From NCBI RefSeq assembly GCF_010550245.1, contig NZ_JAAGLU010000019.1:1-64000 (forward strand): a stretch of 64,000 bases of DNA, given 5' to 3'. This DNA comes from Streptomyces sp. SID12501. Lineage in GTDB: Bacteria; Actinomycetota; Actinomycetes; Streptomycetales; Streptomycetaceae. Made by a program: the position numbers and the translations under genes. The stretch's first letter is position 1. Each line of letters opens with the position of its first letter. The notes below the pieces were generated by a model. That model did not search any database, was not told the DNA's origin, and saw only the letters and a program-made list of their open reading frames with translations. Below are positions 1 to 18,655 of the stretch, piece by piece.

Positions 1-1059
1 GGCCGGCGAGCCGAAGGCTGCGAGCCGGTCGGCCAGCGCCGCCGCGTCCGCGACGAGCCGACCCGACGTCCGCCCGGTCGCGACCCGCGCCTCCAACAGC
101 ACCAGCCGGGCGTGCGCCTCCCACCAGCTGCGCCGCTGCCCGGCGAACAGACGTACGGCCACGGCCGCGCGGGCGATCGCGGTCTGCGGATCGTCCGCGA
201 GCCGGGCGGCCTTCGCGGCGGTCAGCAGCAGCTCCGCCTTGCGGGTGCTCTGCCCGCCGATGCCGTCGAGCACACCGAGCGCCGCATCGGCCTCCATGAC
301 CGCCTCGCGGGCCAGCCCGGCGGCCATCAGGACCTCGCAGCGACGGATGTAGAACATGAAGATCGGCGTGCCCAGCCGGGCGTACCGCTCGGCCGCCTCG
401 TCGAACAGGCGCAGCGCCGCGGGGATGTCGCCGGCCCGGTACGCGGCCAGCGCCCGGCTCTCGACGACGTCGGCCTTGTCGTGCTCCTGGCCGGTGGTGT
501 CCCACAGCTGTTCGGCGGCGGTGAAGTCGGCGTCGGCCCGCTCGGGGCGGCCGAGCGCCAGATGCACGGTGGCCCGCAGGGTCAGCGCCCGCGCCGTCCA
601 GATGGTGTCGTCCGCCTGCCGCAGCACGGGAATGGCCCGACGTACGTCGTCCAGCGCCTCGCGGTGATGCCCCAGCACCCACCACGCGTACGCCCGCCGG
701 TACAGCACGCGCGCGCGTGTATGGCCCGTACCCCGGTCGACGCCCTGCTCGAACGCCTCCAGGCCCTGCCGGGTACGGCCCGCGTGGACCAGCGCGACAC
801 CGAGCGTGCCGAGAACGTCCGCCTCGCGCTCCGCCGATCCGGCGTCCGCCGCGAGATCACGCGCGCGCCGCAGATGACGCAGGGCGACGCGCATGTCGCC
901 GAAGTCCCGCTGCCACATACCGATCACCTGATGGGCGACCGAGGCGTGAAACGGTGTCGGATCGCTGCCGAGGACGTTCTCCGCGCGCGCGAGGGCGTCC
1001 TTCGGGCGGGCGAACACCATCGGCAGTAGTTCGAGAACCGTGTCGCTTCCCGCTGTCAC
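1..1059 (-). CDS. TPR-repeat protein, probable N-terminal part of a CHAT-domain protease (partial)
   Basis: The reading frame is open from a GTG at 1059 to the window edge, giving 353 codons with no stop. The translation is alanine- and arginine-rich and made of repeated helical pairs of TPR type, for example stretches beginning ADVLGTLGVALVHAGR and ALTLRATVHLALGRPERA. No catalytic domain lies inside the window; the C-terminal part is missing. It is divergent from a subtilisin-sigma factor-acidic protein operon. From memory of actinobacterial genomes, TPR proteins in this position usually end in a CHAT (caspase-like) peptidase domain; that part is inference. The Shine-Dalgarno sequence before the GTG is weak, so the start may differ by a few codons. 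Confidence 0.7.
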   Translation of the reverse strand, partial: MTAGSDTVLELLPMVFARPKDALARAENVLGSDPTPFHASVAHQVIGMWQRDFGDMRVALRHLRRARDLAADAGSAEREADVLGTLGVALVHAGRTRQGLEAFEQGVDRGTGHTRARVLYRRAYAWWVLGHHREALDDVRRAIPVLRQADDTIWTARALTLRATVHLALGRPERADADFTAAEQLWDTTGQEHDKADVVESRALAAYRAGDIPAALRLFDEAAERYARLGTPIFMFYIRRCEVLMAAGLAREAVMEADAALGVLDGIGGQSTRKAELLLTAAKAARLADDPQTAIARAAVAVRLFAGQRRSWWEAHARLVLLEARVATGRTSGRLVADAAALADRLAAFGSPA

Positions 1060-1244
1060 CCAACGGATGGTAGTGCTCCGCGCCTCGCGTCATACAGGTT
1101 TGGCCATGGATAACTCGCTGTCCATCCCTGATCGATCCCTGTATCAACGAAATCGACGAACGTGTCGCGGCCCCTGTATCACGCGGCCGCACGGCGGCTC
1201 TCAATTACGGCAACAGGGGATCGGCTCAAGGGGGAGGACATTCC

Positions 1245-2687
1245 ATGGCACCTCAGCGTTTCCAGGAGCAGTTCGACCAGATCCAGCGCTCCATGCCCGG
1301 CGTCGAGCTGGCGATGGGGCCGGACGACTCAGCCGAGTTCATCTACGAGAAGGGCGTCGTCCTGGCCCGCGACGGCGAGGAGGCGCGGATCGTCGAGGAC
1401 GCCGTACGCGCGCACTTCACCGCGTCCGCCGGTCTGATCGCCGAAGAGGTGCGCCGGGCGAGCCCGGAGACCAACCGGTCGGGCATCACCCGGATCCAGG
1501 TCGGCGATCCGGCCCAGGGCGACAGGCGCGGCGACCGCGCGGTGGCGGGCGCGCTGCACGCGCTGAGGCAGACGGAGGGCAACGCGGGGCGCCGCCTGGT
1601 CAGCCGCAACCACGTGGTGCACATCGCCGGCGTCAACGCCTGCCCCGGCGACGAGCCCGTGCCCGTCCCGTACACCGCGGGGCCCAACCCGGCGGTGGCG
1701 GAGAGCGGCTACGACGCGGACAGCGCCGTCGGCGTCCTGGTCATCGACACCGGCCTGATGCACGACTACGCGTCCTACCCGGCGATGGCCCACGTCCAGG
1801 GCGACCCCCAGACGGACGAGTGCGACGCGAACGGAGTGCTCCAGCAGTACGCCGGGCACGGCACGTTCATCTCGGGGCTCGTCGCGGCCGTCGCCCCCAA
1901 CACGGACATCGTCTCCCGCAACACCCTCAACGACGCCGGCGCGATCCTGGAGTCCGAGTTCGGCGACAAGCTCTTCGAGGCCGTCGAACGCGACGGCTGG
2001 CCGGCCATCATCAGCCTCTCCGCGGGCACGTCGAACGGCAGTACGGAAGGCCTGCTCGGCCTCGCCGCGTTCATGGAGGCCCTGCGCGAGCAGCCGCGCA
2101 CCCTGCTGGTCGCCGCGGCAGGGAACAACGCCAGCGCCACCCCCTTCTGGCCCGCCGCCTACGCCGACAAGCCCGAGTACGCCCAGTCCGTGATCTCCGT
2201 CGGCGCCCTGCGCAGCGACGGCGAGTTCGGCGCCTGCTTCACCAACCACGGCGCTTGGGTGAAGGTCTACGCCCCCGGCGAGCGGCTCACCGGCGCGCTC
2301 ACCGGCTTCCAGGCGCCGGTGCCGTACATCTACCAGCACAGCACGTACGGCACCTGCCGCCACCACTTCACCTACGCCTGCACCTGCCAGGACCCCCAGC
2401 ACCTCGGCGTGCTCTCGGGGGACCACGAGACGACCTCGGGCACCCCGGACCAGGTGGTGTTCGAGGGGTTCGTACAGTGGAGCGGTACCTCGTTCGCCAC
2501 CCCGGTGGTCGCCGCGCTGATCGCCGCCCACATGACCGCGCACAAGGAGGCCGACCCGCGCGTCGCCCGGCAGCAACTCCTCGCGGCGAACACCGAGTTC
2601 GCGGAGGTCCGGGGCGCAGTGGTACCCGCGCTGATCCCGCCCACGTGGAGCCCGGTGCCGGTCGCGAGCATCCCGCCCGCCATATGA
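1245..2687 (+). CDS. S8 (subtilisin) family serine peptidase, no signal peptide
   Basis: A 480-aa peptidase with the full subtilisin triad: Asp168 in VIDTGL, His205 in GHGTFISG and Ser416 in SGTSFATP, plus the oxyanion Asn294 in AAGNN. The first 150 residues hold no signal peptide or membrane helix, so the enzyme probably acts in the cytoplasm, unlike most subtilisins. A Cys/His-rich insertion at about residues 370-392 (Cys371, 379, 381 with several His) could bind metal. A strong GGGGGAGG ribosome site precedes the ATG. It is the first gene of a short operon with a sigma factor and an acidic protein, divergent from the TPR protein. Its substrate is unknown; the genetic company points to regulated proteolysis rather than nutrition. 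Confidence 0.9.
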   Translation: MAPQRFQEQFDQIQRSMPGVELAMGPDDSAEFIYEKGVVLARDGEEARIVEDAVRAHFTASAGLIAEEVRRASPETNRSGITRIQVGDPAQGDRRGDRAVAGALHALRQTEGNAGRRLVSRNHVVHIAGVNACPGDEPVPVPYTAGPNPAVAESGYDADSAVGVLVIDTGLMHDYASYPAMAHVQGDPQTDECDANGVLQQYAGHGTFISGLVAAVAPNTDIVSRNTLNDAGAILESEFGDKLFEAVERDGWPAIISLSAGTSNGSTEGLLGLAAFMEALREQPRTLLVAAAGNNASATPFWPAAYADKPEYAQSVISVGALRSDGEFGACFTNHGAWVKVYAPGERLTGALTGFQAPVPYIYQHSTYGTCRHHFTYACTCQDPQHLGVLSGDHETTSGTPDQVVFEGFVQWSGTSFATPVVAALIAAHMTAHKEADPRVARQQLLAANTEFAEVRGAVVPALIPPTWSPVPVASIPPAI

Positions 2688-2728
2688 GGTCAACAGGCCT
2701 CCGTACAAGGACAAATCGAGTGAGGACC

Positions 2729-3373
2729 ATGCGCAGGACGAGTGGAGCACCCCCTTCCACGGCGTACGATGACTGGCCGTACACGAGGGGTGGGGACGTG
2801 GACCGAGCTGCGGTCGGCGCGTTGGTCCAGTCCGCCGTCGACGGTGACGCGGCGGGCTGGAAGGCGCTGGTGGAGGGGTTGAGCCCACTGGTGTGGTCGG
2901 TGGCGCGCGCCCACCGGCTGTCCGACGCGGACGCGCACGAGGTGTACTCGACCGTCTGGTTCCGCTTCGCCCAGCACCTGGGCCGTATCCGTGAACCGGA
3001 GAAGGCCGGTTCGTGGCTCGCGAGCACCGCACGGCACGAGTGCCTCAAGGTCATCAAGAGCAGCCACCGGATGACACCGACGGACGACGCCCAACTGCTC
3101 GACCGGATCAGCGACGACCGTACGCCCGAGCAGCGGGTGATCCAGTCCGAGGAGGCCTCCGCCGAGGCGGATCGCATCCGGCAGTTATGGCAGGAGTTCG
3201 AGGAACTCGGCGCCCGTTGCAGGCAGTTGCTGCGCATCCTGATGTCCACGCCGCCACCGAGCTACCAGGAGATCTCCGCCGGCCTCGGCATCGCGGTCGG
3301 CAGCATCGGCCCCCTGCGCCAGCGCTGCCTGCGCCGGCTGCGGGTACGGCTCGCCGCCCGGGGGGTGCTGTGA
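2729..3373 (+). CDS. ECF-like sigma-70 family sigma factor with a TTA codon
   Basis: A 214-aa protein with a sigma region 2 (about residues 30-105, with WKALVEGLSPLVWSVARAH and a region rich in Trp/Phe) and a region 4 helix-turn-helix at the end (YQEISAGLGIAVGSIGPLR). It should direct RNA polymerase to a small set of promoters. The gene lies 41 bp after the subtilisin gene and overlaps the next gene by GTGA. The start could instead be GTG 2798, which has a GAGGGG sequence before it and would give 191 aa. The in-frame TTA at 3185-3187 (Leu153) makes translation dependent on the bldA tRNA, which links expression to development. No obvious anti-sigma gene with a membrane segment is present nearby. 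Confidence 0.85.
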   Translation: MRRTSGAPPSTAYDDWPYTRGGDVDRAAVGALVQSAVDGDAAGWKALVEGLSPLVWSVARAHRLSDADAHEVYSTVWFRFAQHLGRIREPEKAGSWLASTARHECLKVIKSSHRMTPTDDAQLLDRISDDRTPEQRVIQSEEASAEADRIRQLWQEFEELGARCRQLLRILMSTPPPSYQEISAGLGIAVGSIGPLRQRCLRRLRVRLAARGVL

Positions 3374-3966
3374 ACGACGCGCACGACAACGACGGATTAC
3401 CCCACGACTCCGACGATATGGACGGCACGGCCGACATGAACGCCACCGACGATATGAACGGCTTCGACGCCGATGACGAACTGGACGGCGAGACTGACGA
3501 CTTGGGGGAGTTCGAGGGCGACGACTCGCTGGACAACGACCTCCTGGAAGAAACGCTGCGCCAGGCCGCCGCGATCATGGATCCGGTCCCGGCACAGCTC
3601 CAGCAGACCGCCGTGGAGGCCTACGCCCTGTACTCGCTCGACACCCGACTTGCCGAGCTGACCTTCGACTCGCTCGTCCACGGCATCCCCGTCAGAGGCG
3701 CTGAGGACCCACCCCGCATGCTGACCTTCCACACGGATGAACTGACGGTCGACATCGAGGTGACCGCGCACGGGCTGATGGGGCAGGTGCTGCCGCCGCA
3801 GGAGGTCAGGATCGAGGTGCTGAGCGGTCCGCAGCTCGCCTCACCGCCCACCCTCACCGCCGACGACATGGGCCGCTTCACCGGCGACCTGCACGTCACC
3901 GGCCCCTTCGCGCTCCGGCTGCGCACGGACGCGGAGGTCGTCATGACGGAGTGGCTGCGCGTCTGA
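3370..3966 (+). CDS. acidic protein coupled to the sigma factor
   Basis: A 198-aa soluble protein starting at a GTG that overlaps the sigma factor stop by four bases, so the two are translationally coupled. About 25 of the first 60 residues are Asp or Glu, with no Cys and no membrane helix; this looks like a disordered acidic arm. The remainder (from about residue 75) alternates short strands, such as LTFHTDELTVDIEVTAHG, and may be a small beta-sandwich. A TTA codon at 3397-3399 (Leu10) adds bldA dependence. I do not recognise a family with certainty. By position it could hold, modify or report on the sigma factor, or be the peptidase target; these are hypotheses only. Confidence 0.7.
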   Translation: MNDAHDNDGLPHDSDDMDGTADMNATDDMNGFDADDELDGETDDLGEFEGDDSLDNDLLEETLRQAAAIMDPVPAQLQQTAVEAYALYSLDTRLAELTFDSLVHGIPVRGAEDPPRMLTFHTDELTVDIEVTAHGLMGQVLPPQEVRIEVLSGPQLASPPTLTADDMGRFTGDLHVTGPFALRLRTDAEVVMTEWLRV

Positions 3967-3983
3967 CACGACGCACGACTGCC

Positions 3984-4012
3984 GGGGGCGGATCCGCTGC
4001 GGACCCGCCCCC
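3984..4012. terminator. bidirectional hairpin terminator
   Basis: A GC-rich inverted repeat (GGGGGCGG with CCGCCCCC, an A/C mismatch, then TCCG with CGGA around a 3-base loop) sits between two convergent genes, 18 bp after the acidic-protein stop and 12 bp after the transporter ATPase stop on the other strand. Confidence 0.6.
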
Positions 4013-4023
4013 GAACTCCGCCG

Positions 4024-5052
4024 TCAACCCACCGCGACCAGCGGGTAGTGGCAGGCGACCGCGCTCCCCGCTGCCGTCGTGACCAGCCGGGGCCGCTCCA
4101 CCGCGCACACCTCCCGCGCGTACGGACACCGCGTGTGGAAGGTGCAACCGGCCGGTTTTGCCACGGGGTTGGGCACGTCCCCGGTGAGGACGATCCGCTC
4201 CCGGCGCGGCGCGTCCGGGGCGCCGGTCCCGTCGTCGATCTCCGGCACCGCCGACATCAGCGCCTCGGTGTAGGGGTGCGCGGGAGCCCCGTACAGCGTC
4301 TCCGTGTCGGCGAGTTCGACGATCTCGCCGAGATACATGACCGCGATCCGGTCCGAGACGTGACGGACCACACCCAGGTCGTGCGCGATGAAGACGTACG
4401 TCAGCCCGAACTCGTCCTGGAGGTCGGCGAACAGGTTCAGCACCTGCGCCTGGATCGACACATCGAGCGCTGACACCGGTTCGTCCGCGACGATCAGCTT
4501 CGGAGAAGTTGCCAACGCCCGCGCGATACCGATGCGTTGACGCTGACCGCCGGAGAACTCGTGCGGATACCGGTCCAGATGGGCCGCCGCCAGCCCCACC
4601 ACGTCGAACAGTTCGGCCACCCGGCGCCGGACGGCGGCGCCATCCCCGTAACGGTGGATGAGCAGTGGCTCGGCGACGATGTCCCCGGCGCGACGGCGTG
4701 GGTTCAGGGAGGCCTGCGGGTCCTGGAAGACGAGCTGTATCCCCGGTCGTACGGGGCGCAGCCAGCGCGCGGACAGCTTGGTGATGTCCTGCCCGTCGAA
4801 CTCGACCCGCCCGCCGGTGATGTCGGTGAGCCGGACCAGACAGCGCCCGAGTGTCGACTTGCCGCAGCCGGACTCGCCGACGATGCCGAGGGTCTCACCC
4901 CCGCGCACCTCCAGCGAGACCCCGTCCACGGCCCGCAGCACCTTGCGGCGCCGGGTGAGGGAGTCGCCGCGCAGGGGGTAGTGCTTGGTGACGTCAGTGG
5001 CGCGCAGCAGCACGTCGGCGTCGCCGATTCCGGTCTGGGGGTCCGCTGTCAC
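4024..5052 (-). CDS. peptide ABC transporter ATP-binding protein (DppF/OppF type)
   Basis: A 342-aa ATPase that powers peptide import. It contains the Walker A motif GESGCGKS, the signature [14 protein letters not shown], the Walker B/DEPVSALD box and the C-terminal oligopeptide-transporter tail with the [10 protein letters not shown] cysteine motif. The GTG at 5052 overlaps the stop of the upstream ATPase gene by four bases and is a better start than the longer open frame to 5214. Last gene of a five-gene importer operon read leftward; it pairs with the other ATPase to form the heterodimeric motor. Confidence 0.92.
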
Positions 5053-6086
5053 GGCGCCGCCTTTCTGTCGTCCGCTGTCGAGTGCGCCGTACGGGCGGAC
5101 GCGCGCTCCCCGTCCGGCAGCCAGCAGGCGTCGAGGTGCCCCGACTCCCCCCGCAGCACCGGGCGTTCGTCGCACAGGTCGTGCCGCGCCGGGCAGCGCG
5201 GCGCGAACGCGCACCCCGCCGGCACACTGTCCGGCGACACGGGCACGCCCGCGATGGTGGGCAGCCGGCGCAGCCTCGGCCCGCCGACCCGGGGCACCGA
5301 GTCGAGCAGCCCCCAGGTGTACGGATGCCGGGGGCCGTGGAACACGGCCTGGCGCGGACCCTCCTCGGCCGCCCGCCCGCCGTACATGACCAGCACCCGG
5401 TCGGCGATCTCGGACACCACCCCCATGTCGTGCGTGATGAGCACCACCGCCGAACCGCGCGCGTTCAACTCCCGCATCAGGTCGAGGATCTGGGCCTGGA
5501 TCGTCACATCGAGCGCGGTCGTCGGCTCGTCGGCGATCAGCAGCGCCGGACCGCAGGCGAGGGCCATCGCGATGACCGCCCGCTGCCGCATACCGCCCGA
5601 GAACTCGTGCGGGTAGGCGTGGACCCGCGAACCGGCGTCCGGGATGCCCACGTCCGACAGCAGCCCGACCGCCCGGGCGAGAGCCTCCTTCCTGGACACC
5701 TTCTCGTGCGCCCGGATCTGCTCGGCGATCTGCCGGCCGACCGTGTAGACCGGCGTCAGCGCGGTCATCGGGTCCTGGAAGACCATCGAGATCTCCCGGC
5801 CGCGCACCGACCGCATCTCCTTGTCGGGGAGAGTCAGCAAGTCCCGCCCACGGAAGAGGACTTCGCCCGTGACGGTGACGTTGGGGCTGGTCAGCAGCCG
5901 CAGCACGGCCAGCATCGAGACGCTCTTGCCCGAGCCTGACTCGCCGACCACGCCCAGGATCTCGCCGGGGTCGACCGAGAAGGAGAGCCCGTCGACGACC
6001 GTCACCGTGCCGGTGCGCGTGCGGAAGGAGATCCGCAGATCCCGTACGTCCAGCAGGGGCTGCGGCGTCTGCAGTGGCTCAGGCAT
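5049..6086 (-). CDS. peptide ABC transporter ATP-binding protein (DppD/OppD type)
   Basis: A 345-aa ATPase with Walker A GESGSGKS, signature SGGMRQRAVIAMAL, Walker B with DEPTTALD, and the oligopeptide-transporter C-terminal tail with cysteines (CAFAPRCPARHDLC). It is the partner of the following ATPase and together they couple ATP hydrolysis to the two permeases. The ATG at 6086 lies inside the end of the permease gene, an 8-bp overlap, showing translational coupling within the operon. Confidence 0.92.
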   Translation of the reverse strand: MPEPLQTPQPLLDVRDLRISFRTRTGTVTVVDGLSFSVDPGEILGVVGESGSGKSVSMLAVLRLLTSPNVTVTGEVLFRGRDLLTLPDKEMRSVRGREISMVFQDPMTALTPVYTVGRQIAEQIRAHEKVSRKEALARAVGLLSDVGIPDAGSRVHAYPHEFSGGMRQRAVIAMALACGPALLIADEPTTALDVTIQAQILDLMRELNARGSAVVLITHDMGVVSEIADRVLVMYGGRAAEEGPRQAVFHGPRHPYTWGLLDSVPRVGGPRLRRLPTIAGVPVSPDSVPAGCAFAPRCPARHDLCDERPVLRGESGHLDACWLPDGERASARTAHSTADDRKAAP

Positions 6087-7047
6087 GGCGGGCCCTCGGA
6101 TCGAGTCGCGCGTACAGGATGTCGACCAGCGCGTTGGCGAGGACCACGAAGAACGCCGCGTACATGACCGTCCCCATGATCACGGGCAGGTCCAGGTTCT
6201 GCAGCGCGTCGAAGGTGAGCTTGCCGACGCCGGGCAGGCCGAAGACGACCTCGGTGAGCAGGGCCGCCCCGCCCACCAGCGCGCCGAAGTCCAGGCCGAA
6301 CAGCGACACGATCGGGATGAGCGAGCAGCGCAGCGCGTGCCGGACGAGGATCCGCCGCTCCGAGAGGCCTTTGGCCCGAGCGGTGCGTACGTAGTCCTCG
6401 CCGAGTGCGCTGACGATCTCGCCGCGCAGCAGCCGGGCGTAGATGCCGGCGTACAGCAGCGCCAGGGTCAGCCACGGGAAGAGCAGGTGCAGCGCCCACT
6501 GGCCGGGGTCCTTGCCCAGCTCCACGTACCCGGGCGGTGGCACCCAGGAGAACACCGAGTCGTGCAGACGTTTCTGGGTGAGGAGGTTGACGACCTCGCC
6601 GAGCCAGTAGGCGGGCAGTGAGACGCCGACGACGCCCACCAGCATGATCAGCGGGTCGGCGGCCGTGCCGCGCAGCGCGGCCGCCGCCGTGCCCATGAGG
6701 ATGCCGACCGTCATCCAGATGACCGCCGCGCCGATCACCAGCGACAGCGTCACCGGCATGGCCTGCACGATCTGCGGGATGACCTTCGAGCCGCGGTTGA
6801 CGAACGACTCCAGGTCCCGGTCGATCAACAGGTGCCGCATCATCAGCACATAGCGGACGGGCAGCGGCCGGTCGAGGCCGAAGGAGTGACGTACCTGGGC
6901 GAGGGTGGCCGGGTCGGCGTTGCGGCCCGCGATACGGGCGGCGGGGTCGACTCCCGGGGTGGCGAAGAAGATCAGGAACACCAGCACACTGATCGCGAAC
7001 ATCACCAGCAGGGCGGACAGGAAGCGCCGGAGCGCGAAGTACAGCAT
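6079..7047 (-). CDS. peptide ABC transporter permease (DppB/OppB type)
   Basis: A 322-aa inner-membrane permease. An N-terminal helix (residues about 5-29, VMFAISVLVFLIFFATPG) is typical of DppB proteins. The conserved ATPase-contact EAA-type loop with EDYVRTARAKGLSE and the final helices follow. Together with the DppC-type partner it forms the translocation channel. It is 4 bp from the upstream permease gene. Confidence 0.92.
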   Translation of the reverse strand: MLYFALRRFLSALLVMFAISVLVFLIFFATPGVDPAARIAGRNADPATLAQVRHSFGLDRPLPVRYVLMMRHLLIDRDLESFVNRGSKVIPQIVQAMPVTLSLVIGAAVIWMTVGILMGTAAAALRGTAADPLIMLVGVVGVSLPAYWLGEVVNLLTQKRLHDSVFSWVPPPGYVELGKDPGQWALHLLFPWLTLALLYAGIYARLLRGEIVSALGEDYVRTARAKGLSERRILVRHALRCSLIPIVSLFGLDFGALVGGAALLTEVVFGLPGVGKLTFDALQNLDLPVIMGTVMYAAFFVVLANALVDILYARLDPRARHA

Positions 7048-7051
7048 CGGA

Positions 7052-8083
7052 TCACACCCCTCCGCGCAGTCGGGCGTTCGGGTCGAGGGCGTCGCGAACC
7101 CCGTCGCCGAGGACGTTGAGGGCGGCTGTCGTCAGCGCGATGAGCAGCCCGGGGGCGATGGTCACGGTCGGGCGGGTGTACAGCAGTCCGAGGCCGTCCT
7201 CGATGATCGTGCCCCAACTGGCGTCGGGCGGCTGGACTCCGACGGACAGGAAGGACAGCGCCGACTCCGTGAGCATCGCCAGCGCGGTCATCAGCGGCAG
7301 GAACACGATCGCCGTGGGCAGCACGTTCGGCAGCACCTCCCGGCGCATCACCCGCAGGGCGGGCGCGCCCGACCCGATGGACGCCTGGATGAACTCCTTG
7401 TTCCGCAGCACCAGCACCTGCCCGCGCATCGGCCGGGCCACGTACGGGACATAGATCGCCGCGATGATCACGACCGGCAGCCACAGGCTCCCGGCCTCGA
7501 CGGTGACCGGTCCGAGGCTGAGCCCGTCGGTGAGCAGGACGACGGACAGACAGATGGCCAGCAGATACACCGGGAAGGCCCAGATGACGTCCAGGACACG
7601 GGAGATGACCGCGTCGACGACCCCGCCCGCGTACCCGGCGAGGACCCCGACGGCCGTACCGAGGACACAGCACAGCAGCGCCGCCGTGACCCCGATGAAC
7701 AGGCTGGTACGGCCGCCGTACAGCAGCCGGGCCATGACGTCCCGGCCCTGGTTGTCGGCGCCGAGGAAGTAGTGGCCGAAGTCCCAGGTGGGGCCGATGG
7801 GTGTGACGCCGAGGCCGAGCCCGGTGCTGCTCGGGGTGAGTACCGGCACGGTCTTCCCGTTCACGACGGTCGTCCCGGAGACATGGGACTGGAACGGGTC
7901 GGTGTGCGCGATGTGGTCGGCGTACAGCGGGGCGCACAGCGTCACCGCGACGACGGCGAGCAGAACGAGGGCCGCGGCCACCGCCGACCTGTTGCGCAAC
8001 AGGTCGGCGGCGGCGGTCCGCCAGGGGCCCGGCGAACGTCGCCGGGTCGTGGGGGATGCCAACTGGGTTGCTGCGCTGCTCAC
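7052..8083 (-). CDS. peptide ABC transporter permease (DppC/OppC type)
   Basis: A 343-aa permease with the short cytoplasmic N-terminus, a first helix at about residues 32-52 (AAALVLLAVVAVTLCAPLY), a periplasmic-side loop and the binding-protein-dependent permease core with five further helices (LGADNQGRDVMARLLYG is the family hallmark). The GTG at 8083 overlaps the stop of the solute-binding protein gene by four bases and is chosen over a longer frame to 8230 that would run through that gene. Confidence 0.92.
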   Translation of the reverse strand: MSSAATQLASPTTRRRSPGPWRTAAADLLRNRSAVAAALVLLAVVAVTLCAPLYADHIAHTDPFQSHVSGTTVVNGKTVPVLTPSSTGLGLGVTPIGPTWDFGHYFLGADNQGRDVMARLLYGGRTSLFIGVTAALLCCVLGTAVGVLAGYAGGVVDAVISRVLDVIWAFPVYLLAICLSVVLLTDGLSLGPVTVEAGSLWLPVVIIAAIYVPYVARPMRGQVLVLRNKEFIQASIGSGAPALRVMRREVLPNVLPTAIVFLPLMTALAMLTESALSFLSVGVQPPDASWGTIIEDGLGLLYTRPTVTIAPGLLIALTTAALNVLGDGVRDALDPNARLRGGV

Positions 8084-9807
8084 TTGACCCACAGCTGCCC
8101 GACGAGCATGTAGAACTGCTTGCTGAACCGGTAGTTGCCGACCCGCTTCGACGTGAAGTCGATGATCTTCGGGTTGATCACCGGGACCACCGGCGACTGC
8201 GCCATGATGTCCTGGTCGATCGTGCCCCACTGCTGGTCGGCGGCCTTCTGGTCGGTCTGCCCGGTCTTCAGCGCGGTCTGCATCCGGGCGTCGATCCCCT
8301 TGTCGCAGAACCCGGCGATGTTGATGCTGGAGTCACTGCCCGGGTGGAACGAGGCGCAGGACAGCAGCACGTTGAGGAAGTCGGAGGCGGCCGGATAGTC
8401 CTGGTACCAGGACGTCAGCGCCAACTGCACCTTGTTCTTGGTGTTCTGGATGTACGTGAACTGGATGTTCGCGGACAGCGGCTTGAGCGTCGCCTTGTAG
8501 CCGAGCTGGGTCAGCAGGCTCTGCAGGTACTGCCCGATCGACTTGTTGACCTCGTCGTCGCTGACAACGATGCCGACCTCCTGACCGGCCGTCCCCGACT
8601 CCTTGACCAGCGCCTTCGCCTTGGCGAGGTCCGGCGCCGACCAGGTTGTCCCGCCGCCCTTGGTGTACTGGCACTTGTCGACGTGCCCGGGGAAGCCCGG
8701 CGGCAGGATCGTGCACGCGGGCGAGGCGAGGTTCTTGCCGCCGTACAGCCCGACCACCGCGTCCCGGTCGACCGCCCAGTTGATGGCCTGGCGCGCCAAC
8801 TTGTTGTTGAACGGGGCAGAGTTGACGTTCAGAGTGACGTACCAGAACGCGGTCAGCGGATTGACGTGCGCCTGGGAGGCGTACTGCGTGCCGATCTCGT
8901 TCAGACGGTCGGCGGGCGGCGGGTCGAACATCCAGTCCGCCGAGCCGTTCTGGACGGCGGTCACCTCGGACTCGACGGTCTGCCCGAAGGTGTAGTCGAC
9001 GTTGTCGGCGTATGCCTGGGGCTGCGCCTCGCGCGACCACTCCTTGAAGTACGGGTTGCGCACCAGCTTCAGCGCCCGGTTCGGGTCGTACGAGGCCGCC
9101 ATGTACGGGCCGGTTGTGGGGAGCGGCTCGGTGCCCGCGTCCTTCGTCGGCGAGTCCTTCGGCACGATGCTGGCGTGCGGAACGGCCAGCTTGTACGGGA
9201 ACTCCGGGTCCGGCGCCGTCAGGTTGACGGTGACCGTGCCGGCCGCCGCGTCACCGACGACGCCCTTGGTGAGCGTGCAGGACGCCGGCGTCTTCAGGCA
9301 GGCGTCCGCGCCGACGATCCCGTTGTAGAAGGTGCCCGCGGTCGGGCTGGACACCTTGAAGATCCGCTGGAAGGACGCCACCACGTCGTCGGTGGTCACC
9401 GCCTTCCCGGTGGAGAACCTGATCCCCTTGCGGAGGGTGAAGGTGTACGTCTTCCCGCCGTTGCTGACCACCGGCATGGCCGCTGCCAGATCCGGGACCA
9501 CGGTGAACGACTGCTGGCCGTCGGTCTTCTTGAACGCCAGCAGACCGTCGTACATCGACTGGTACAACTGCCAGTACTGGAGCGTGTAGTTGACCTGCGG
9601 ATCGAAGGTCCCGGCGGCTGCGTGGGCGACCAGCTTCAGCGTGCCGCCCTTGTGCGCGGGCTGGAACGCGGCCGACTGGGTGCCGCCGCTGGCGGTGGAG
9701 GTCGGGTCGGACGAGCCGCCGTCGTCGGAGGACGAACAGGCGGTCGCGGTGAGGGCGAGGGCGGCGGTCACGGCGGCGAGGGCGGTGCGTCTGGTGATCC
9801 GGGTCAT
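8080..9807 (-). CDS. peptide-binding lipoprotein of the ABC importer (family 5 solute-binding protein)
   Basis: A 575-aa lipoprotein that captures peptides outside the cell and hands them to the permeases. The N-terminus has two arginines, a hydrophobic core and a lipobox LTATAC with Cys24, followed by a Ser/Asp/Gly-rich linker. The mature part has the family 5 hallmarks (GTLKLVAHAAAGTFDPQVNYT; GKTYTFTLRKGIRFSTGKAV). The start codon has a GGGAG ribosome site 7 bases upstream. It is the first transporter gene after the peptidase gene; six heptamer repeats lie in its leader. Confidence 0.93.
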   Translation of the reverse strand: MTRITRRTALAAVTAALALTATACSSSDDGGSSDPTSTASGGTQSAAFQPAHKGGTLKLVAHAAAGTFDPQVNYTLQYWQLYQSMYDGLLAFKKTDGQQSFTVVPDLAAAMPVVSNGGKTYTFTLRKGIRFSTGKAVTTDDVVASFQRIFKVSSPTAGTFYNGIVGADACLKTPASCTLTKGVVGDAAAGTVTVNLTAPDPEFPYKLAVPHASIVPKDSPTKDAGTEPLPTTGPYMAASYDPNRALKLVRNPYFKEWSREAQPQAYADNVDYTFGQTVESEVTAVQNGSADWMFDPPPADRLNEIGTQYASQAHVNPLTAFWYVTLNVNSAPFNNKLARQAINWAVDRDAVVGLYGGKNLASPACTILPPGFPGHVDKCQYTKGGGTTWSAPDLAKAKALVKESGTAGQEVGIVVSDDEVNKSIGQYLQSLLTQLGYKATLKPLSANIQFTYIQNTKNKVQLALTSWYQDYPAASDFLNVLLSCASFHPGSDSSINIAGFCDKGIDARMQTALKTGQTDQKAADQQWGTIDQDIMAQSPVVPVINPKIIDFTSKRVGNYRFSKQFYMLVGQLWVK

Positions 9808-9843
9808 CGGGGAACTCCCGTCGGTGGAGCGGGTGCTGAAGCT

Positions 9844-9885
9844 GCTGAGGGCTGAGGGCTGAGGGCTGAGGGCTGAGGGCTGAGG
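9844..9885. repeat. six tandem copies of the heptamer GCTGAGG
   Basis: Six perfect, uninterrupted copies of a 7-bp unit lie between the peptidase stop and the start of the binding-protein gene, 37 bp upstream of the latter. As the unit is not a multiple of three and lies in an untranslated leader, changes in copy number would alter leader length or secondary structure rather than reading frame. Confidence 0.9.
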
Positions 9886-9903
9886 GGGACTGGGGCCGGG
9901 GAC

Positions 9904-10800
9904 TCAGTCGGTGGAGTCGAGGAAGTCGCCGACGATCCGGAGGTACAGCTCCTCCTCCTCGACGTGCGGCATATGGCTGGAGTGCTCGAACATGTGCCAG
10001 CGCACATCGGGGATGAGGTCGGCGAAGGGCCGGAGTGTGTCGGGTGTCGCCTCGTCGTAGCGGCCGGACACCAGCAGGGTCGGCGCGTCGATCAAATGCA
10101 GCCGGTCGACGACCGACCACTCCTTCATGGTCCCGATGACATGGAACTCGTTCGGCCCGTTCATCGTGTGGTAGACGGTCGGGTCGGCCGCGATGTTGTC
10201 CCAGGTCGCCTGGACCTCGGCGGGCGCCGGGACCGTACGGCACACATGGCGCTCGTAGAAGACCTGCTCGGCGGCGTGGTAGTCGGGGTGGTCGGTGGTC
10301 CCGGCCGCCTCGTGGACGAGCAGGGTCTCCTGGACCTCGGGCGGGAGCGCGGAGCGGAGTTCGGCGGCGCCCGCCAGCCAGAGCTCCATGGAGGCGGGGG
10401 AGTTGGCGATGACCAGACCGCGCAGCCCGGCCGGACGGCGCACGGCGTGCTCGGCGGCGAGGATGCCGCCCCACGACTGGCCGAGCAGATGGTAGGCGTC
10501 GGCGATGTCCAACTTCCGTAGCAGGTTGTCGAGTTCGTCGAGGAAGAGCTGGACGGTCCAGAAGTCGGCGCCCTTGTCGGGCAGATGGGTGGACCGTCCG
10601 ATGCCGAGCTGGTCGTAGTGCACGACCGGGCGGCCCTGCTGGGCGATGCCGGTGATGCGCAGCGTGTAGTCGTGACCGGCACCGGGGCCGCCGTGCAGGA
10701 CCACCAGCGGTGTCCTGCCGGGTTCGCCGGTGATGCGGTACCAGGTGGACCAGCCGTTGAAGTCGATGGTCCCGGTGTGGTTCGGTTCGGGAATCGCCAC
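9904..10800 (-). CDS. proline iminopeptidase-like alpha/beta hydrolase
   Basis: A 298-aa cytoplasmic hydrolase that probably removes N-terminal proline from peptides. It has the oxyanion motif HGGPGAGHD, the nucleophile elbow GQSWGG with the catalytic Ser, and a C-terminal SSHMPHVEE with the likely catalytic His. I chose GTG 10800 because GGAGG stands seven bases upstream; a longer frame begins at 10830. It is the first gene of the leftward operon, followed by the peptide importer, so imported peptides and their degradation are probably co-expressed, under the divergent FadR/GntR regulator. Confidence 0.88.
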   Translation of the reverse strand: MAIPEPNHTGTIDFNGWSTWYRITGEPGRTPLVVLHGGPGAGHDYTLRITGIAQQGRPVVHYDQLGIGRSTHLPDKGADFWTVQLFLDELDNLLRKLDIADAYHLLGQSWGGILAAEHAVRRPAGLRGLVIANSPASMELWLAGAAELRSALPPEVQETLLVHEAAGTTDHPDYHAAEQVFYERHVCRTVPAPAEVQATWDNIAADPTVYHTMNGPNEFHVIGTMKEWSVVDRLHLIDAPTLLVSGRYDEATPDTLRPFADLIPDVRWHMFEHSSHMPHVEEEELYLRIVGDFLDSTD

Positions 10801-10902
10801 TGAGGAGCCTCCGAGGGCAGGCAGAATCAAGCCAGTCAGTGTCTGAAAAGGATTGGTGTCCGGGGATGGCTGACATACTCTTTGGGTAAATGCTCAGTCC
10901 AC

Positions 10903-10922
10903 AAGACCTTTTAAGACCTTTT
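10903..10922. promoter_or_regulatory. tandem 10-bp repeat AAGACCTTTT in the divergent promoter region
   Basis: Two perfect adjacent copies of AAGACCTTTT lie in the AT-rich gap between the peptidase operon and the regulator gene. One turn of DNA per copy and the position make it a candidate operator for the neighbouring FadR-type regulator. A weak promoter for the leftward operon (TTGTGG, 18 bp, GAGTAT on the minus strand) would lie immediately downstream. Binding is inferred, not shown. Confidence 0.4.
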
Positions 10923-11065
10923 AGCGGTGACCCGGCAGAAGTAACTGCGCGTTCACGCGCCCGGAACCCGCGACCGACCGGGGAGGACCGCTGACCGTCG
11001 CATCGGAGTCACCACAACCGCCTGCGCCGCCAGAACGATCAGGTGCCGGGGACGAGTTCTCGCGG

Positions 11066-11836
11066 GTGTTCGACCGTGTCCTGTCCGGCGGTGGCGCCCC
11101 CTCGCCCGAACTGCGCCCGGTGCGGGTGGCCTCGGCGGTCGACGAGGTCTCCGACCGGCTGCTCACCGCCATCGCCGTGGGCGACTTCCTGCCGGGGGAG
11201 CGGCTGCCGGTCGAGCGCGAGCTGATCACGCTGCTGGGGGTGAGCCGTCCCACGGTGCGTGAGGCGGTCGGCCGGCTCCAGGCGGTCGGCGTCATCGAGA
11301 TCCGCCGGGGCCGCAACGGCGGTGCCTACGTGCGCGACAGCTGGAGCGAGTCCTCCGGTGCCGCCGTCCGGCGCACTCTCGTGCCGCGCTGGGCGGAGTT
11401 CGAGCAACTCTTCGACCTGCGTGGGCTGGTGGAGGGAATGGTGGCGGCGACGGCGGCCCGGCGCCGACGCCCCGAGGACCTCGTACCCATGAGTGACGCC
11501 CTGACCGCCTATCTGTCCGCGCGCGACCCGCGCGAGGAACACGCCGCCGACAGCGCCTTCCACCGCAGCATCTGCGACGCCACGCACAACCCCCAGATCT
11601 CCATGCTCAGCCGCGACCTGCTGGCCCGGGCCAGCCTCGGCTTCCCGGTCGAACCCTGGGGCAAGGGAGAGCGCACCCACTTCCACAGGGGCGGCGAGGA
11701 CCACAAGGACCTCTACGAGGCGGTCGCGGCCGGTGAACCGGAGCGGGCGGAAGAGATCGCCCGCGAGCACTTCACGATCAGCGCGGACATGATCCGCGAC
11801 GTACTGGCCAGGGTCAGGAACGCCGGCCAGGCATGA
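11066..11836 (+). CDS. GntR-family (FadR subfamily) transcriptional regulator
   Basis: A 256-aa regulator with a winged helix at residues about 15-85 (PGERLPVERELITLLGVSRPTVREAVGRL is the recognition region) and an all-helical FCD ligand domain with the metal-binding histidine pattern (Asp/His in DSAFHRSICDATHNP and the later HFHRGGEDH). It probably controls the divergent peptidase and peptide importer operon in response to a small carboxylate or peptide product. The start is uncertain. GTG 11066 has no clear ribosome site, whereas an in-frame CTG at 10991 has GGGAGG five bases upstream and would add 25 residues. Confidence 0.88.
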   Translation: MFDRVLSGGGAPSPELRPVRVASAVDEVSDRLLTAIAVGDFLPGERLPVERELITLLGVSRPTVREAVGRLQAVGVIEIRRGRNGGAYVRDSWSESSGAAVRRTLVPRWAEFEQLFDLRGLVEGMVAATAARRRRPEDLVPMSDALTAYLSARDPREEHAADSAFHRSICDATHNPQISMLSRDLLARASLGFPVEPWGKGERTHFHRGGEDHKDLYEAVAAGEPERAEEIAREHFTISADMIRDVLARVRNAGQA

Positions 11837-11880
11837 CGATCGGCCCCCGGGACGCAGGTGCGCGTGCCGGGGGCCGATCG
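11837..11880. terminator. 14-bp perfect hairpin terminator after the regulator gene
   Basis: Arms 11837-11850 (CGATCGGCCCCCGG) and 11867-11880 are perfectly complementary around a 16-base loop. The hairpin begins directly after the stop codon and separates the regulator gene from the convergent isocitrate dehydrogenase gene. Confidence 0.75.
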
Positions 11881-11907
11881 GTGAGCCCTGTGAACTCGGG
11901 TGCGGAA

Positions 11908-11929
11908 CCGCGCCCCTGAAGGGGCGCGG
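11908..11929. repeat. intergenic hairpin of the dispersed Streptomyces repeat type
   Basis: Arms CCGCGCCCC and GGGGCGCGG pair around TGAA. The flanking sequence GGGGAACTGCGCGACAAGCC is, from memory, an abundant intergenic word in Streptomyces chromosomes. It may add to termination between the convergent genes. Confidence 0.6.
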
Positions 11930-12003
11930 GGAACTGCGCGACAAGCCCCCACCGGCCCGCAGCTGACGAACCGCCTACCCGAACCGCTTAGGCGCCGCAG
12001 GCA

Positions 12004-14390
<2,387 letters not shown>

Positions 14391-14423
14391 GCGGATTCAG
14401 GCAACCGACTCCGCCGATCTTGT

Positions 14424-14440
14424 GGTCTAGGGGGTAGACC
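14424..14440. promoter_or_regulatory. inverted repeat GGTCTA-N5-TAGACC upstream of the M1 peptidase gene
   Basis: A perfect 6-bp inverted repeat with a G5 spacer lies 58 bp before the peptidase start. The half-sites resemble the TGGTCTAGACCA core of DasR-type GntR operators, but the five-base insertion breaks that spacing, so a specific regulator cannot be named. Confidence 0.35.
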
Positions 14441-14497
14441 CGCACACCTGATCGACGGCCGGACCTGACCACCCGGGCGCCCGAGTGAAAGCGACCC

Positions 14498-16063
14498 ATG
14501 AGATATCGCACCAGACTGACGGCCCCTGCGGCAGCCCTGCTCGGTACGGCGGCGGCCACCACCCTGGCCCCCTCCGCCCACGCGGCGTCCGGGGGGACGT
14601 CCAGAACGGCCGGCGTGAAAGACGCCGCAGCCCCGGGCCCCGAGACCCTCGGTGACCCCGTCTACCCGAGTCTCGGCAACGACGGCTACCGCGTCGACGC
14701 CTACCACCTCGACCTCGCGTACGACGCCACGACCAAGCTGGTCGAGGGCGAGGCGACCCTGCGCATCCGCACCACCCAGGACCTGAGCCGCCTCTCCCTC
14801 GACGCCCTCGGCCTGGACATCCGCTCCGTCCGCGTCGGCGGCCGTGCGGCCACGTACGAGCAGGTCGACGAGAAACTGCGGATCACGCCCTCCCGGGCGC
14901 TGCCGGCGCAGACCCGGACGACCATCTGCGTCGAGTACGGCGCCGACCCGCGCCGCGCCCTGACCCACACCGCCTGGGTCCCCACCGTCGACGGCTTCGC
15001 GGTGTGCCCGCAGCCCAACTCCGCGCACACCGTCTTCCCGTGCAACGACCACCCGGTCGACAAGGCCGATTTCACGTTCCGGATCACCGTGCCGAGCAGC
15101 CTGCGCGGAGTCGCGAGCGGCATCCTCGTGCGCACGGAGACCCTGGACGGTGACCGGACCGCGTACTCCTACCGCTCGCGCTCGCCGATCGCCACCGAGC
15201 TCGTGCAGATAACCGTCGGCGACTACGTGGTGAAGGACCGGCAGGGCCCGAACGGGCTGCCGCTGCGGGACGTCGTCCCGGTCGCGCGCGCCGAGGCCCT
15301 CGAGCCGGCGCTGGCGCTCACCCCGGGCCTGGTGGCGTGGCTCGAACAGCGGCTCGGCGCCTACCCGTTCGAGACGTACGGCCTGCTGCCGTGCAACTCC
15401 GACGACCCGGCCGCCTTCGACTTCACCGGCCTGGAGACGCAGACCCTCACGCTCTACAAGCCGAACTACCTTCTCCAGGCGGAGAGGTTCATCGGCTCGC
15501 ACATGATGCACGAGCTGGTCCACTCCTACTTCGGCAACAGCGTCAGCCCCGGCACCTGGGCCGACCTGTGGCTCAACGAGGGGCACGCCGACTTCTACGG
15601 ACTGCTCTACCGCTACGAGCGCGGCTGGACCGACTCCCTCGGCCTGACCACCATGGAAGCGCGTATGAAGAACACGTACGCGCGCGGCGACCAGTGGCGC
15701 CGCACCTCCGGACCGGTCGCGGCCCCCAACGAGGCCAACCTGTTCGACAGCCAGCGCTATCTGGGCGGCGTCCTCGTCCTCTACGCGCTGCGCCAGTTCG
15801 TCGGCGAGGCCACCTTCAGCACGATCGAGCGCACCTTCCTCGACCGCTACCGCAACGCCTCGGCGACGACCGAGAACTACATCTCGGTCGCCTCCGAGAT
15901 CGCCGGCCAGGACCTCTCCGGCTTCCTGCGGGACTGGCTGTACGGCACGACGACACCGCGGATGCCCGGTCACCCGGACTGGACGGTCACCCCGGTGACC
16001 ACGTCACTGATCGCGCCGCAGAACCGCACGGCCGGCCATCACGACAACTCCGCGACCCTCTGA
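14498..16063 (+). CDS. secreted M1-family zinc metallopeptidase
   Basis: A 521-aa aminopeptidase-like enzyme. A signal peptide occupies residues 1-29 (cleavage near AHA/AS). The zinc site is HELVH (His338, Glu339, His342) with the third ligand Glu361 in NEGHAD, exactly 18 residues later as in M1 enzymes. The exopeptidase motif is FTGLETQTL rather than GAMEN, so exact specificity is open. The N-terminal beta-saddle domain precedes the catalytic domain. The protein is shorter than full aminopeptidase N (about 850 aa), as is common for secreted M1 enzymes in actinobacteria. It is a single gene, convergent with the MscS gene. Confidence 0.9.
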   Translation: MRYRTRLTAPAAALLGTAAATTLAPSAHAASGGTSRTAGVKDAAAPGPETLGDPVYPSLGNDGYRVDAYHLDLAYDATTKLVEGEATLRIRTTQDLSRLSLDALGLDIRSVRVGGRAATYEQVDEKLRITPSRALPAQTRTTICVEYGADPRRALTHTAWVPTVDGFAVCPQPNSAHTVFPCNDHPVDKADFTFRITVPSSLRGVASGILVRTETLDGDRTAYSYRSRSPIATELVQITVGDYVVKDRQGPNGLPLRDVVPVARAEALEPALALTPGLVAWLEQRLGAYPFETYGLLPCNSDDPAAFDFTGLETQTLTLYKPNYLLQAERFIGSHMMHELVHSYFGNSVSPGTWADLWLNEGHADFYGLLYRYERGWTDSLGLTTMEARMKNTYARGDQWRRTSGPVAAPNEANLFDSQRYLGGVLVLYALRQFVGEATFSTIERTFLDRYRNASATTENYISVASEIAGQDLSGFLRDWLYGTTTPRMPGHPDWTVTPVTTSLIAPQNRTAGHHDNSATL

Positions 16064-16086
16064 GCCTGTCCGCCGAGACGTGAGTC

Positions 16087-17238
16087 TCATCTGTCGGTCT
16101 TGTTGAGTTTGTCGAGTTCGCCGAGCAGGGTGGACGCCGGTCCGCCCTGCTCCGCGCCGAGCCCCAGGTCGGGTTCCGTGTGGCCGCCCCGCTGCTGCGG
16201 AATGACGACGGCGCCATGCTGCAGGGCGACCGTGCGTGCGGGCGCCGGGATGCTGATGCCCTCCGCCCGGTAGCGCCTGTGCAGGCGCTTGATGAACTCG
16301 TGCTTGATCCGGAACTGGTCGCTGAACTCGCCGACCCCCAGGATCACCGTGAAGCCGATCCGTGAGTCGCCGAAGGTGTGGAAGCGCACCAGCGCCTCGT
16401 GCTCCGGGACGGCGCCGGTGATCTCCGTCATCACCTCGGTCACGACCTCGCAGGTGACCCGCTCGACCTGCTCCAGGTCGCTGTCGTAGGCGACGCCGAC
16501 CTGGACCAGGATCGTCAGCATCTCCTCGGGGCGGTTGAAGTTGGTCATGTTGGTCCCGGCGAGCTGCCCGTTCGGGATGATGACCAGGTTGTTGGAGAGC
16601 TGGCGGACCGTCGTCTGCCGCCAGTTGATGTCGACGACGTACCCTTCCTCGCCGCTGCTCAGCTTGATGTAGTCACCGGGCTGGACGGTCTTCGAGGCGA
16701 GGATGTGGATACCCGCGAAGAGGTTGGCGAGGGTGTCCTGGAGGGCGAGCGCGACGGCCAGACCGCCGACGCCCAGGGCGGTGAGCATCGGCGCTATGGA
16801 GACGCCGAACGTCTGGAGCATGACGAGGAAGCCCAGGGCCAGGATGACGACCCTGATGATGTTGACGAAGATCGTCGCCGAGCCGGCGACCGCCGACCGG
16901 GACTGGGTGACGGCACTCATCAGCCGGCCGACCACTCTGGCCACCGTGAGCGTCGTGACGCCGATCAGGAGCACGGTCAGTGTCTGGTTGACGTTGTGCC
17001 CGACGGTTTTCGTCAGCGGCAGCGCCGCGGCGGCGACCGCCACGCCACCGGTGAACGCCGACCACGGCACCACCGTGCGCACCGCGTCCACGATGACGTC
17101 GTCCCCGCTCCAGCGGGTGCGGTCCGCGTGCCTGCCCAGCCAGCGCAGGAGCATACGCAGCAGGAAGGCCGCCAGCAGGCCCACGGCGAGGGCGATGCCC
17201 GCGACGACCAGATCGTCCACGGTGAGGTCTCGCTTCAT
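16087..17238 (-). CDS. small-conductance mechanosensitive channel (MscS family)
   Basis: A 383-aa membrane protein. Predicted helices lie near residues 10-31, 58-76, 84-106 and 123-180; the last includes the glycine/alanine pore helix (ALGVGGLAVALALQDTLANLFAG), which is the family hallmark. A beta domain (GDYIKL, VVDINWRQTTVR, IPNGQLA) and a C-terminal alpha/beta domain follow. It should release solutes on osmotic downshock. An excellent GGAGGTGAGCG ribosome site precedes the ATG. The tail after residue 345 is variable and polar. Confidence 0.92.
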   Translation of the reverse strand: MKRDLTVDDLVVAGIALAVGLLAAFLLRMLLRWLGRHADRTRWSGDDVIVDAVRTVVPWSAFTGGVAVAAAALPLTKTVGHNVNQTLTVLLIGVTTLTVARVVGRLMSAVTQSRSAVAGSATIFVNIIRVVILALGFLVMLQTFGVSIAPMLTALGVGGLAVALALQDTLANLFAGIHILASKTVQPGDYIKLSSGEEGYVVDINWRQTTVRQLSNNLVIIPNGQLAGTNMTNFNRPEEMLTILVQVGVAYDSDLEQVERVTCEVVTEVMTEITGAVPEHEALVRFHTFGDSRIGFTVILGVGEFSDQFRIKHEFIKRLHRRYRAEGISIPAPARTVALQHGAVVIPQQRGGHTEPDLGLGAEQGGPASTLLGELDKLNKTDR

Positions 17239-17447
17239 CGCTCACCTCCGAGGAGTGGTTCCGCGGCGCCCCGCGCCACCGACGGCCGGATGTGAAGTCT
17301 CGTCACTTGCCACCTGTTCGAATGTGCGAAAAGTCTTGGATACGCGATCAACGACCGGACGTCTGTACGACATCCGGCGACCGCTCATCCTGCCGCATCC
17401 GGCCGACCGATCGTCACCGAGCAGTGGCAAACCCGCCATTGAGCAGC

Positions 17448-18647: not shown

Positions 18648-18655
18648 GTCTCCGG

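Follow-up and report, generated by a model that had tools for sequence, protein, structure and literature searches.

How is a sigma factor held in check when its gene keeps company with two proteases and a strongly acidic protein? The question is raised by the beginning of a stretch of DNA from Streptomyces sp. SID12501 (positions 1 to 64,000 of contig NZ_JAAGLU010000019.1; "the window" below means this whole stretch of 64,000 nucleotides). Window positions 1-3966, at the very start of the contig (C243), hold a divergent cassette of four genes. On the minus strand, from 1059 to beyond position 1, lies the N-terminal TPR part of a caspase-like TPR-CHAT protease (353 residues; TPR match in Pfam/NCBIfam, 8.7e-15). 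On the plus strand follow a subtilisin-like serine protease of family S8 (1245-2687; 480 residues; Peptidase_S8, 1.5e-19), a sigma factor of the extracytoplasmic function (ECF) type (2729-3373, with an alternative GTG start at 2720; 214 residues; Sigma70_r2, 2.6e-9; TIGR02937 sigma70-ECF, 3.8e-17), and an acidic protein of 198 residues (3370-3966), whose GTG start overlaps the stop codon of the sigma gene.

The reading we favor, based on sequence comparisons and structure models, is that the cassette is a cytoplasmic, stand-alone switch in which proteolysis gates a sigma factor. The acidic protein, called the partner from here on, would be an anti-sigma factor that the CHAT protease removes, with the S8 protease assisting. 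We would give this reading a little less than an even chance. A first-pass annotation, made from the sequence letters, had placed the four genes as just described and likened their logic to that of Craspase, in which a TPR-CHAT protease relieves the restraint on a sigma factor. Its observation of the cassette is confirmed, and its interpretation is partly supported.

The proteases and the sigma factor

The annotation had also predicted a CHAT domain beyond position 1 of the window, and there is one. The cassette's TPR gene is cut by the contig start, and its CHAT half ends another contig of the same genome, C799 (G000:C799:319180-320700, in a contig of 320702 nucleotides, inside locus L139). 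That half matches PF12770 (1.6e-25), its translation has the His and Cys motifs, and the two pieces share the CHAT profile between them, positions 3-350 falling in the window part and 361-865 on C799. The full TPR-CHAT gene encodes 831-868 residues in eight of the ten Streptomyces loci that were followed, and the homologue in L002 has PF12770 at its C-terminus (7.5e-26). The catalytic residues are intact, His741 and Cys781 (L002 numbering) being invariant among all 37 aligned homologues. The other two, L011 and L013, each have a disrupted TPR-CHAT frame, and in L013 the S8 protease, sigma factor and partner also match in pieces; these breaks may be errors of draft sequence.

The triad of the S8 protease (D168, H205 and S416, window numbering) is likewise kept in 37 of 37 aligned homologues. 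Its N-terminus has no hydrophobic segment (within the first 60 residues, the highest 19-residue Kyte-Doolittle mean is 0.34), so it is reasonable to regard the enzyme as cytoplasmic, as had been proposed. In six loci of family f17 (L126, L131, L132, L134, L135 and L137), extra S8 matches lie in tandem beside CHAT.

That the sigma factor is an ECF one is borne out by the matches of the window protein to Sigma70_r2 and TIGR02937. A homologue in L078 matches Sigma70_r4 (3.3e-5, just under its cut-off), and the model of the L075 homologue matches ECF structures of two domains. Gene context indicates that the sigma factor probably belongs to group ECF54: according to the available part of PMC8999054, ECF54 factors neighbor CHAT, subtilase and "carboxypeptidase" proteins, and genes for CHAT, a subtilase and a carboxypeptidase-domain protein are what surround the sigma gene here. 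Since the cassette matches this published context, the grouping of its genes is not new.

Conservation of the cassette

A scan with the acidic protein of one genome per species gave 12 loci, all in strains named Streptomyces, and all 12 keep the four-gene order (two of the TPR genes are cut by contig ends, and the matches in L011 and L013 are fragmented). Among the findings that the annotation had named as counting against its idea were the lack of a CHAT domain and the lack of a conserved order elsewhere; neither was found.

A wider set of 84 loci was made up of 44 places outside the source genome, drawn from 246 genomes of the class, and 40 stretches following CHAT, unlinked cases and exceptions. 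The 84 loci fall into 18 arrangements, and through these one neighborhood is nearly constant: of the 62 loci that have a partner gene, 60 have the sigma gene immediately 5' of it on the same strand (L064 and L148 are the exceptions; not all 62 are independent, some genomes contributing two or three). When the search was carried to the phylum, the partner profile matched in 54 of 396 genomes and 33 of 245 genera, and the sigma-partner pair was present in eight of nine further loci, all except L092.

The presence of CHAT also goes with the presence of the partner. Among the 246 class genomes, 84 have both, 3 only CHAT, 1 only the partner and 158 neither, for totals of 87 with CHAT and 85 with the partner (Fisher 4e-61, a value that ignores shared ancestry). 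The cut-offs behind these counts were E <= 1e-60 for CHAT, set to stay within the subfamily, and E <= 1e-3 for the partner. The genus Streptomyces itself is divided, with 11 genomes having both and 13 having neither. Of the exceptions, G033 and G054 (CHAT only) have sigma and partner genes beside CHAT as judged by a profile of our own, G071 (CHAT only; 91% complete) gives a partial sigma match (1.6e-58), and G073 has only the partner.

Could the four genes be neighbors by chance, with no joint function? In favor of the idea, these are broad protein families, and both ECF sigma factors and subtilisins are numerous in Streptomyces genomes. It is contradicted by the order kept in every one of the 12 Streptomyces loci and by the pattern of co-occurrence, and arrangements have been reshuffled yet retained across genera. 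We regard chance as very improbable.

Because the Fisher value ignores shared ancestry, more weight falls on cases where the genes have come apart. In 17 genomes of family f17 the pair of CHAT and subtilisin lies away from the pair of sigma factor and acidic protein, either on another contig or megabases off on the same one (G051, G107, G117 and G153), and both pairs are kept. The S8 gene is still beside CHAT in 16 of the 17, and the remaining locus is cut by the end of its contig. The cassette is a conserved four-gene unit, as the annotation supposed, and CHAT and the acidic protein are inherited together even when unlinked. The separation may have occurred only once, all 17 genomes being of a single family.

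CHAT and S8 make up a second stable pair, found together in 54 of 64 CHAT loci, also when the sigma factor and partner are elsewhere. SAVED-CHAT activates PCaspase, and a likeness to that case might suggest a protease cascade: CHAT would activate the S8 protease, the main effector, which would act on many proteins, and the sigma factor and partner would form only a feedback loop for their own operon. The ten CHAT loci where S8 was not seen bear on this idea. Three are pieces at contig ends, and the other seven, all of family f15 (L084, L085, L086, L144, L153, L154 and L161), keep the sigma factor and partner with no S8 in sight, contrary to what a cascade centered on S8 would lead one to expect; the stretch of L144 ends just past the sigma gene. 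A search for S8 elsewhere in nine f15 genomes, run with no positive control and for that reason uninformative, gave no match. We consider the cascade improbable.

The partner protein

The partner is predicted, from a model of its L075 homologue, to consist of an acidic tail, a two-helix segment and a beta-sandwich that may resemble CarboxypepD_reg. The tail, or arm, is striking in composition: the first 60 residues of the window protein (3370-3549, plus strand) include 25 Asp or Glu and no Lys or Arg. The annotation took the arm to be a plausible target of proteolysis. That it is the key part is not supported. The arm is a variable N-terminal extension of the Streptomyces lineage, and what is conserved across genera is a core made up of the helical segment (DPVP...DAELAEL..DS) and of a sandwich with T.W at its end.

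The window protein has no match in Pfam or NCBIfam up to E = 1. Within its family, 20 of 37 members match CarboxypepD_reg (PF13620) at E <= 1 (best, 1.5e-5), the window protein not being one of them. This likeness links the cassette to the ECF54 context described in the available part of PMC8999054, whose "carboxypeptidase" proteins are, in our own reading, the cassette partner, apparently related to a non-catalytic domain.

Section 3.3 of that review, so far as available, proposes that ECF54 factors are controlled by proteolysis with no anti-sigma factor, and the same passage names AntA (ECF282) as under ClpXP control (PMC8999054). Carried over to the cassette, the proposal would mean that degradation of the sigma factor by the proteases keeps the system silent and that the carboxypeptidase-domain protein is another component of the peptidase type. 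It has the merit of having been stated for this very group. However, the partner family matches only CarboxypepD_reg, which Pfam describes as regulatory and not as a peptidase, and the sigma factor and partner stay paired where CHAT and S8 lie elsewhere, as a sigma factor and its anti-sigma factor would. We think the proposal unlikely to apply, though worth keeping in mind.

Another possibility is that the partner helps the sigma factor, as co-activator, chaperone or adaptor, or that it delivers the sigma factor to the proteases, and that proteolysis ends the response. The same linkage of sigma factor and partner would be expected, and in L064 and L148 the partner is paired with S8 instead of the sigma factor, which fits a protease adaptor. 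What speaks against a helper is the compact arrangement of the sigma factor in the fused model described below, a model that is uncontrolled. This possibility, too, we hold to be a minor one.

Structure comparisons were made at three levels. Among solved structures the single match of the partner profile was to an esterase, at E 0.64, no direct comparison with Csx30 having been made. The L075 partner, modeled alone with AlphaFold, is predicted to have two helices, with no clear loss of confidence there, and seven strands. Its fold neighbors include CrdA (Z 9.0), SiiE (8.6) and fibronectin type III (8.3), the sandwich being of a common type; no anti-sigma factor appears among the best 50 neighbors, in a comparison that covers only residues 97-184. 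Finally, the sigma and partner genes share one frame in eight loci, and the L075 pair could therefore be folded as a single chain by reading through the stop codon.

In the resulting fused model (mean predicted local distance difference test score, pLDDT, 85.5; predicted template modeling score 0.64), the sigma factor fits as one body onto those of 4cxf (CnrH-CnrY; Z 13.5, 3.1 Å over 144 residues), 5wur (SigW-RsiW; Z 13.4, 4.0 Å over 156) and 5uxx (RpoE-NepR; Z 12.3, 3.6 Å over 152). Sigma factors from transcription complexes, aligned over both domains, are 26-29 Å away. The modeled arrangement resembles that of ECF factors held by anti-sigma factors, a likeness that is suggestive only, since the model came with neither an inter-domain error map nor a sigma-alone control and since the confidence of the partner's helices hardly changes when the partner is modeled alone (pLDDT by block 88/93/94/88/75 fused versus 92/89/90/78/69 alone, about equal).

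A conserved motif before cassette genes

The region between the CHAT and S8 genes holds conserved blocks in an alignment of 20 loci (L054 deviates). One block, beside the CHAT start (1065-1075, minus strand), contains TACCAT, which is -10-like on that strand and which by eye may be a promoter. The putative promoter of the S8-sigma-acidic operon is CTGTATCA-N16-CTC (1174-1200, plus strand), near which there is an additional TGTATCA (1140-1146). The bipartite motif is well conserved: TGTATCA-N16-(C/G)TC precedes the S8 gene in all 23 Streptomyces loci with that region (one has G for the leading C, two have GTC).

A second copy lies before a gene for a LuxR/LAL-type regulator that runs towards CHAT, in 18 of 24 Streptomyces loci, ending 8-9 nucleotides before the LAL start codon where examined. 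Of the remaining six, L001, L003, L006 and L012 end earlier, and L047 and L052 show no LAL gene there. The exact motif occurs twice in the source genome, before S8 and before the LAL regulator. That the CTC form is found there only at these two places, both linked to the cassette, would also suit the protease cascade considered above.

The association of motif and cassette extends to other genera. In the 73 loci outside Streptomyces, about 1 Mb in all, TGTATCA is rare: of its 26 occurrences, 16 have CTC at offset 16 and 6 have it at offset 17, and no other offset has more than 2. Matches to the motif number 12 within 350 bases upstream of cassette domains versus 11 in the 15-fold longer remainder (Fisher 3.4e-9). 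Each of four scrambled versions of the heptamer, joined to the same tail, was found 1-3 times, in no case upstream of a cassette gene. The motif is aimed at a cassette gene in 13 loci from ten genera (L054, L059, L064, L067, L071, L073, L074, L143, L152, L155, L159, L160 and L162). In L143, L159 and L162 the longest sigma frame begins 9 nucleotides after the CTC. In G080 an unlinked sigma gene (G080:C4:348948-349493) and an operon of S8 and partner (G080:C1, L064) are each preceded by the motif, which is about 280 nucleotides before the sigma gene, with what appears by eye to be a small open reading frame between. It is very likely, from sequence comparison, that the motif is a promoter of the cassette system in many lineages, genus g32 of family f17 not included, and the cassette sigma factor may be what reads TGTATCA-N16-CTC.

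How far does the motif reach beyond the cassette? The pattern CTGTATCA-N16-STC (S is C or G) has 28 sites in 11 Streptomyces genomes with the cassette, of which 19 lie at the cassette itself. In the 13 genomes that lack the cassette it has 6. The corresponding counts for the reversed control pattern are 24 and 30. In the source genome the looser TGTATCA-N15..17-STC has 7 sites versus 13 for the control, and both CTC sites and one GTC site are at the cassette. For TGTATCA-N15..17-CTC (group sums made by hand from a table), sites versus control are 34 and 37 in ten Streptomyces genomes with the cassette, 18 and 44 in 13 without it, 13 and 22 in four f17 genomes, 36 and 40 in ten genomes from other genera that lack the cassette, and 38 and 14 in 11 genomes that have the cassette and belong to other families, f17 excepted. 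As the excess is found in that one group only, we draw no regulon from it; the genes behind further sites in four genomes of that group are mixed. A wide Streptomyces regulon was considered and is not supported, strict sites outside the cassette being no commoner than those of the reversed control.

Some observations on motif sites and their neighbors stand apart from these counts. On C799 the LAL regulator (GerE, weak AAA_16; L139:11312-13159, plus strand) is convergent with CHAT and has the motif 8 nucleotides before its start; most Streptomyces loci have a homologue, and L055 has a distant one, which is likewise behind the motif. Divergent from the regulator is a gene for an astacin/matrixin-like zinc metallopeptidase (L139:10130-11236, minus strand), without a hydrophobic N-terminus, a third protease at the Streptomyces island. 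In L059 the motif lies between the sigma and partner genes (about 8507, minus strand), before the partner gene alone. Other strict sites outside Streptomyces (L176-L188) precede varied genes (by eye, SpoOM-like and several for membrane or secreted proteins), which are possible regulon members.

A proposed protease-gated switch and its relatives

Returning to the switch we favor, the partner would be a soluble anti-sigma factor whose helical segment holds the sigma factor. The TPR-CHAT protein would sense a signal through its TPR part and then cut the partner. The S8 protease would assist, by completing the breakdown of the partner, or perhaps by being activated by CHAT or activating it. The freed sigma factor would transcribe its own S8-sigma-partner operon from TGTATCA-N16-CTC and in this way amplify the response; in Streptomyces it might also transcribe the neighboring LuxR/LAL-type regulator, spreading the response to a second tier. 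Computation supports the identities of the genes, the intact catalytic residues of the aligned homologues, the nearly constant sigma-partner neighborhood, the joint inheritance of CHAT and partner and the conserved bipartite motif at the cassette. The anti-sigma role of the partner, which protease cuts what, the reading of the motif by this sigma factor and the signal are what we infer.

Several points weigh against this account, in addition to the limits of the fused model. SigG1 (7qh5), not listed as bound to an anti-sigma factor, also fits both domains (3.8 Å over 132 residues), and the anti-sigma-bound 1or7, 6in7, 6dxo and 2z2s fit one domain only. The partner is found with no adjacent sigma gene in three loci (L064, L148 and L092), and S8 is absent beside CHAT in six or seven loci with enough sequence. 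Linkage may reflect inheritance as an operon, not contact between proteins. In L077 and L087, 2 of the 12 upstream matches, the motif points away from the cassette gene. Neither pair has it nearby in genus g32 of f17 (G107 and G117 each contain a single strict site, at some other place), and a motif common to the two unlinked pairs of that genus was sought and not seen. The lack of support for a wide Streptomyces regulon counts in the same direction.

The CHAT profile matches PDB chains 8d9f/8d9g, "CHAT domain protein" (3.5e-5), which we take to be Csx29. In type III-E Craspase, according to the accessible part of PMC10028731, Csx29 is the TPR-CHAT component, Csx30 is a two-domain inhibitor of an ECF sigma factor (CASP-sigma), and motifs for that factor lie in its own locus. 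The cassette is similar in having a TPR-CHAT protease, a candidate two-domain sigma inhibitor and putative sigma motifs at its own locus. It differs in having an additional S8 protease, and the partner resembles Csx30 in its proposed role. The cassette was not taken to be a type III-E Craspase: no CRISPR-like array was found in the three stretches scanned, window 1-20000, L002 (20.6 kb) and L139 (14.7 kb), Cas7-11 not having been searched for.

Protease-cut anti-sigma logic of the kind proposed here is also that of CalpL/CalpT/CalpS, where a protease cuts the anti-sigma factor of an ECF sigma factor; there the protease is a Lon-SAVED protein activated by cyclic tetra-adenylate, whereas those of the cassette are CHAT and S8 (PMC11417357, available part). 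The EACC2/caspase systems resemble the cassette in bringing a caspase domain, a TPR protein and an ECF sigma factor into one neighborhood, and they differ in being built on EACC2 and TRADD-N, for which the cassette proteins have no Pfam match (PMC8195603, available part). With ECF54, so far as PMC8999054 is available, the cassette shares the surroundings of its ECF sigma factor, namely CHAT, subtilase and carboxypeptidase-domain proteins, and the proposal of proteolytic control; the review has no anti-sigma factor, and in our reading the "carboxypeptidase" is a candidate anti-sigma factor coupled to the sigma factor and bearing an apparently non-catalytic domain, to which a candidate promoter is added. 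The part of PMC7730460 available has nothing on the cassette.

The gene grouping, then, is known already. In the literature searched there was no account of the partner as an anti-sigma factor, though the primary ECF54 papers may say more, nor of the co-inherited unlinked pairs, the motif promoter or the LAL link, though the motif may be in print. The paper that re-classified ECF factors is said to give predicted promoter motifs for each group.

To our knowledge, CHAT proteases are widespread and few have a known substrate. The cassette supplies a testable substrate (the partner), an output (the sigma factor) and a 27-bp reporter, in soil bacteria that can be cultured. Put most broadly, a CRISPR-free switch may be spread over Actinobacteria: a TPR-CHAT protease that senses a signal would destroy a soluble anti-sigma factor of a class so far unrecognized, built of a helical arm and a CarboxypepD_reg-like sandwich, and the sigma factor, once free, would read the motif at its operon and at the LAL gene. 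We offer this wider claim tentatively, thinking it rather less than probable. If it is true, the freeing of a sigma factor by a protease, as in Craspase, is found in CRISPR-free systems too, the view that ECF54-type systems have no anti-sigma factor would give way to a definite brake protein, and type III-E CRISPR would have added an RNA guide to a kind of switch that bacteria also use CRISPR-free.

Other features of the locus

An Rfam scan of the window gave no match. A fifth conserved neighbor was sought by clustering open reading frames, and the groups listed were specific to a lineage or resembled antisense frames. PADLOC gave weak subtilase/IetS matches for the S8 protease and helix-turn-helix matches for the LAL regulator. 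A role in defense is possible, by analogy with Craspase and with CalpL/CalpT/CalpS (available parts of PMC10028731 and PMC11417357). Nothing here indicates phage, since PADLOC had no match for CHAT, sigma factor or partner, no array-like repeats were seen in the three stretches scanned, and the plasmid search produced a single partial match, in a 1.16-Mb record of Streptomyces chartreusis. The neighboring genes point the same way: directly past the cassette (4024-9807, minus strand) lies an operon that by eye resembles one for a dipeptide/oligopeptide ATP-binding cassette (ABC) transporter.

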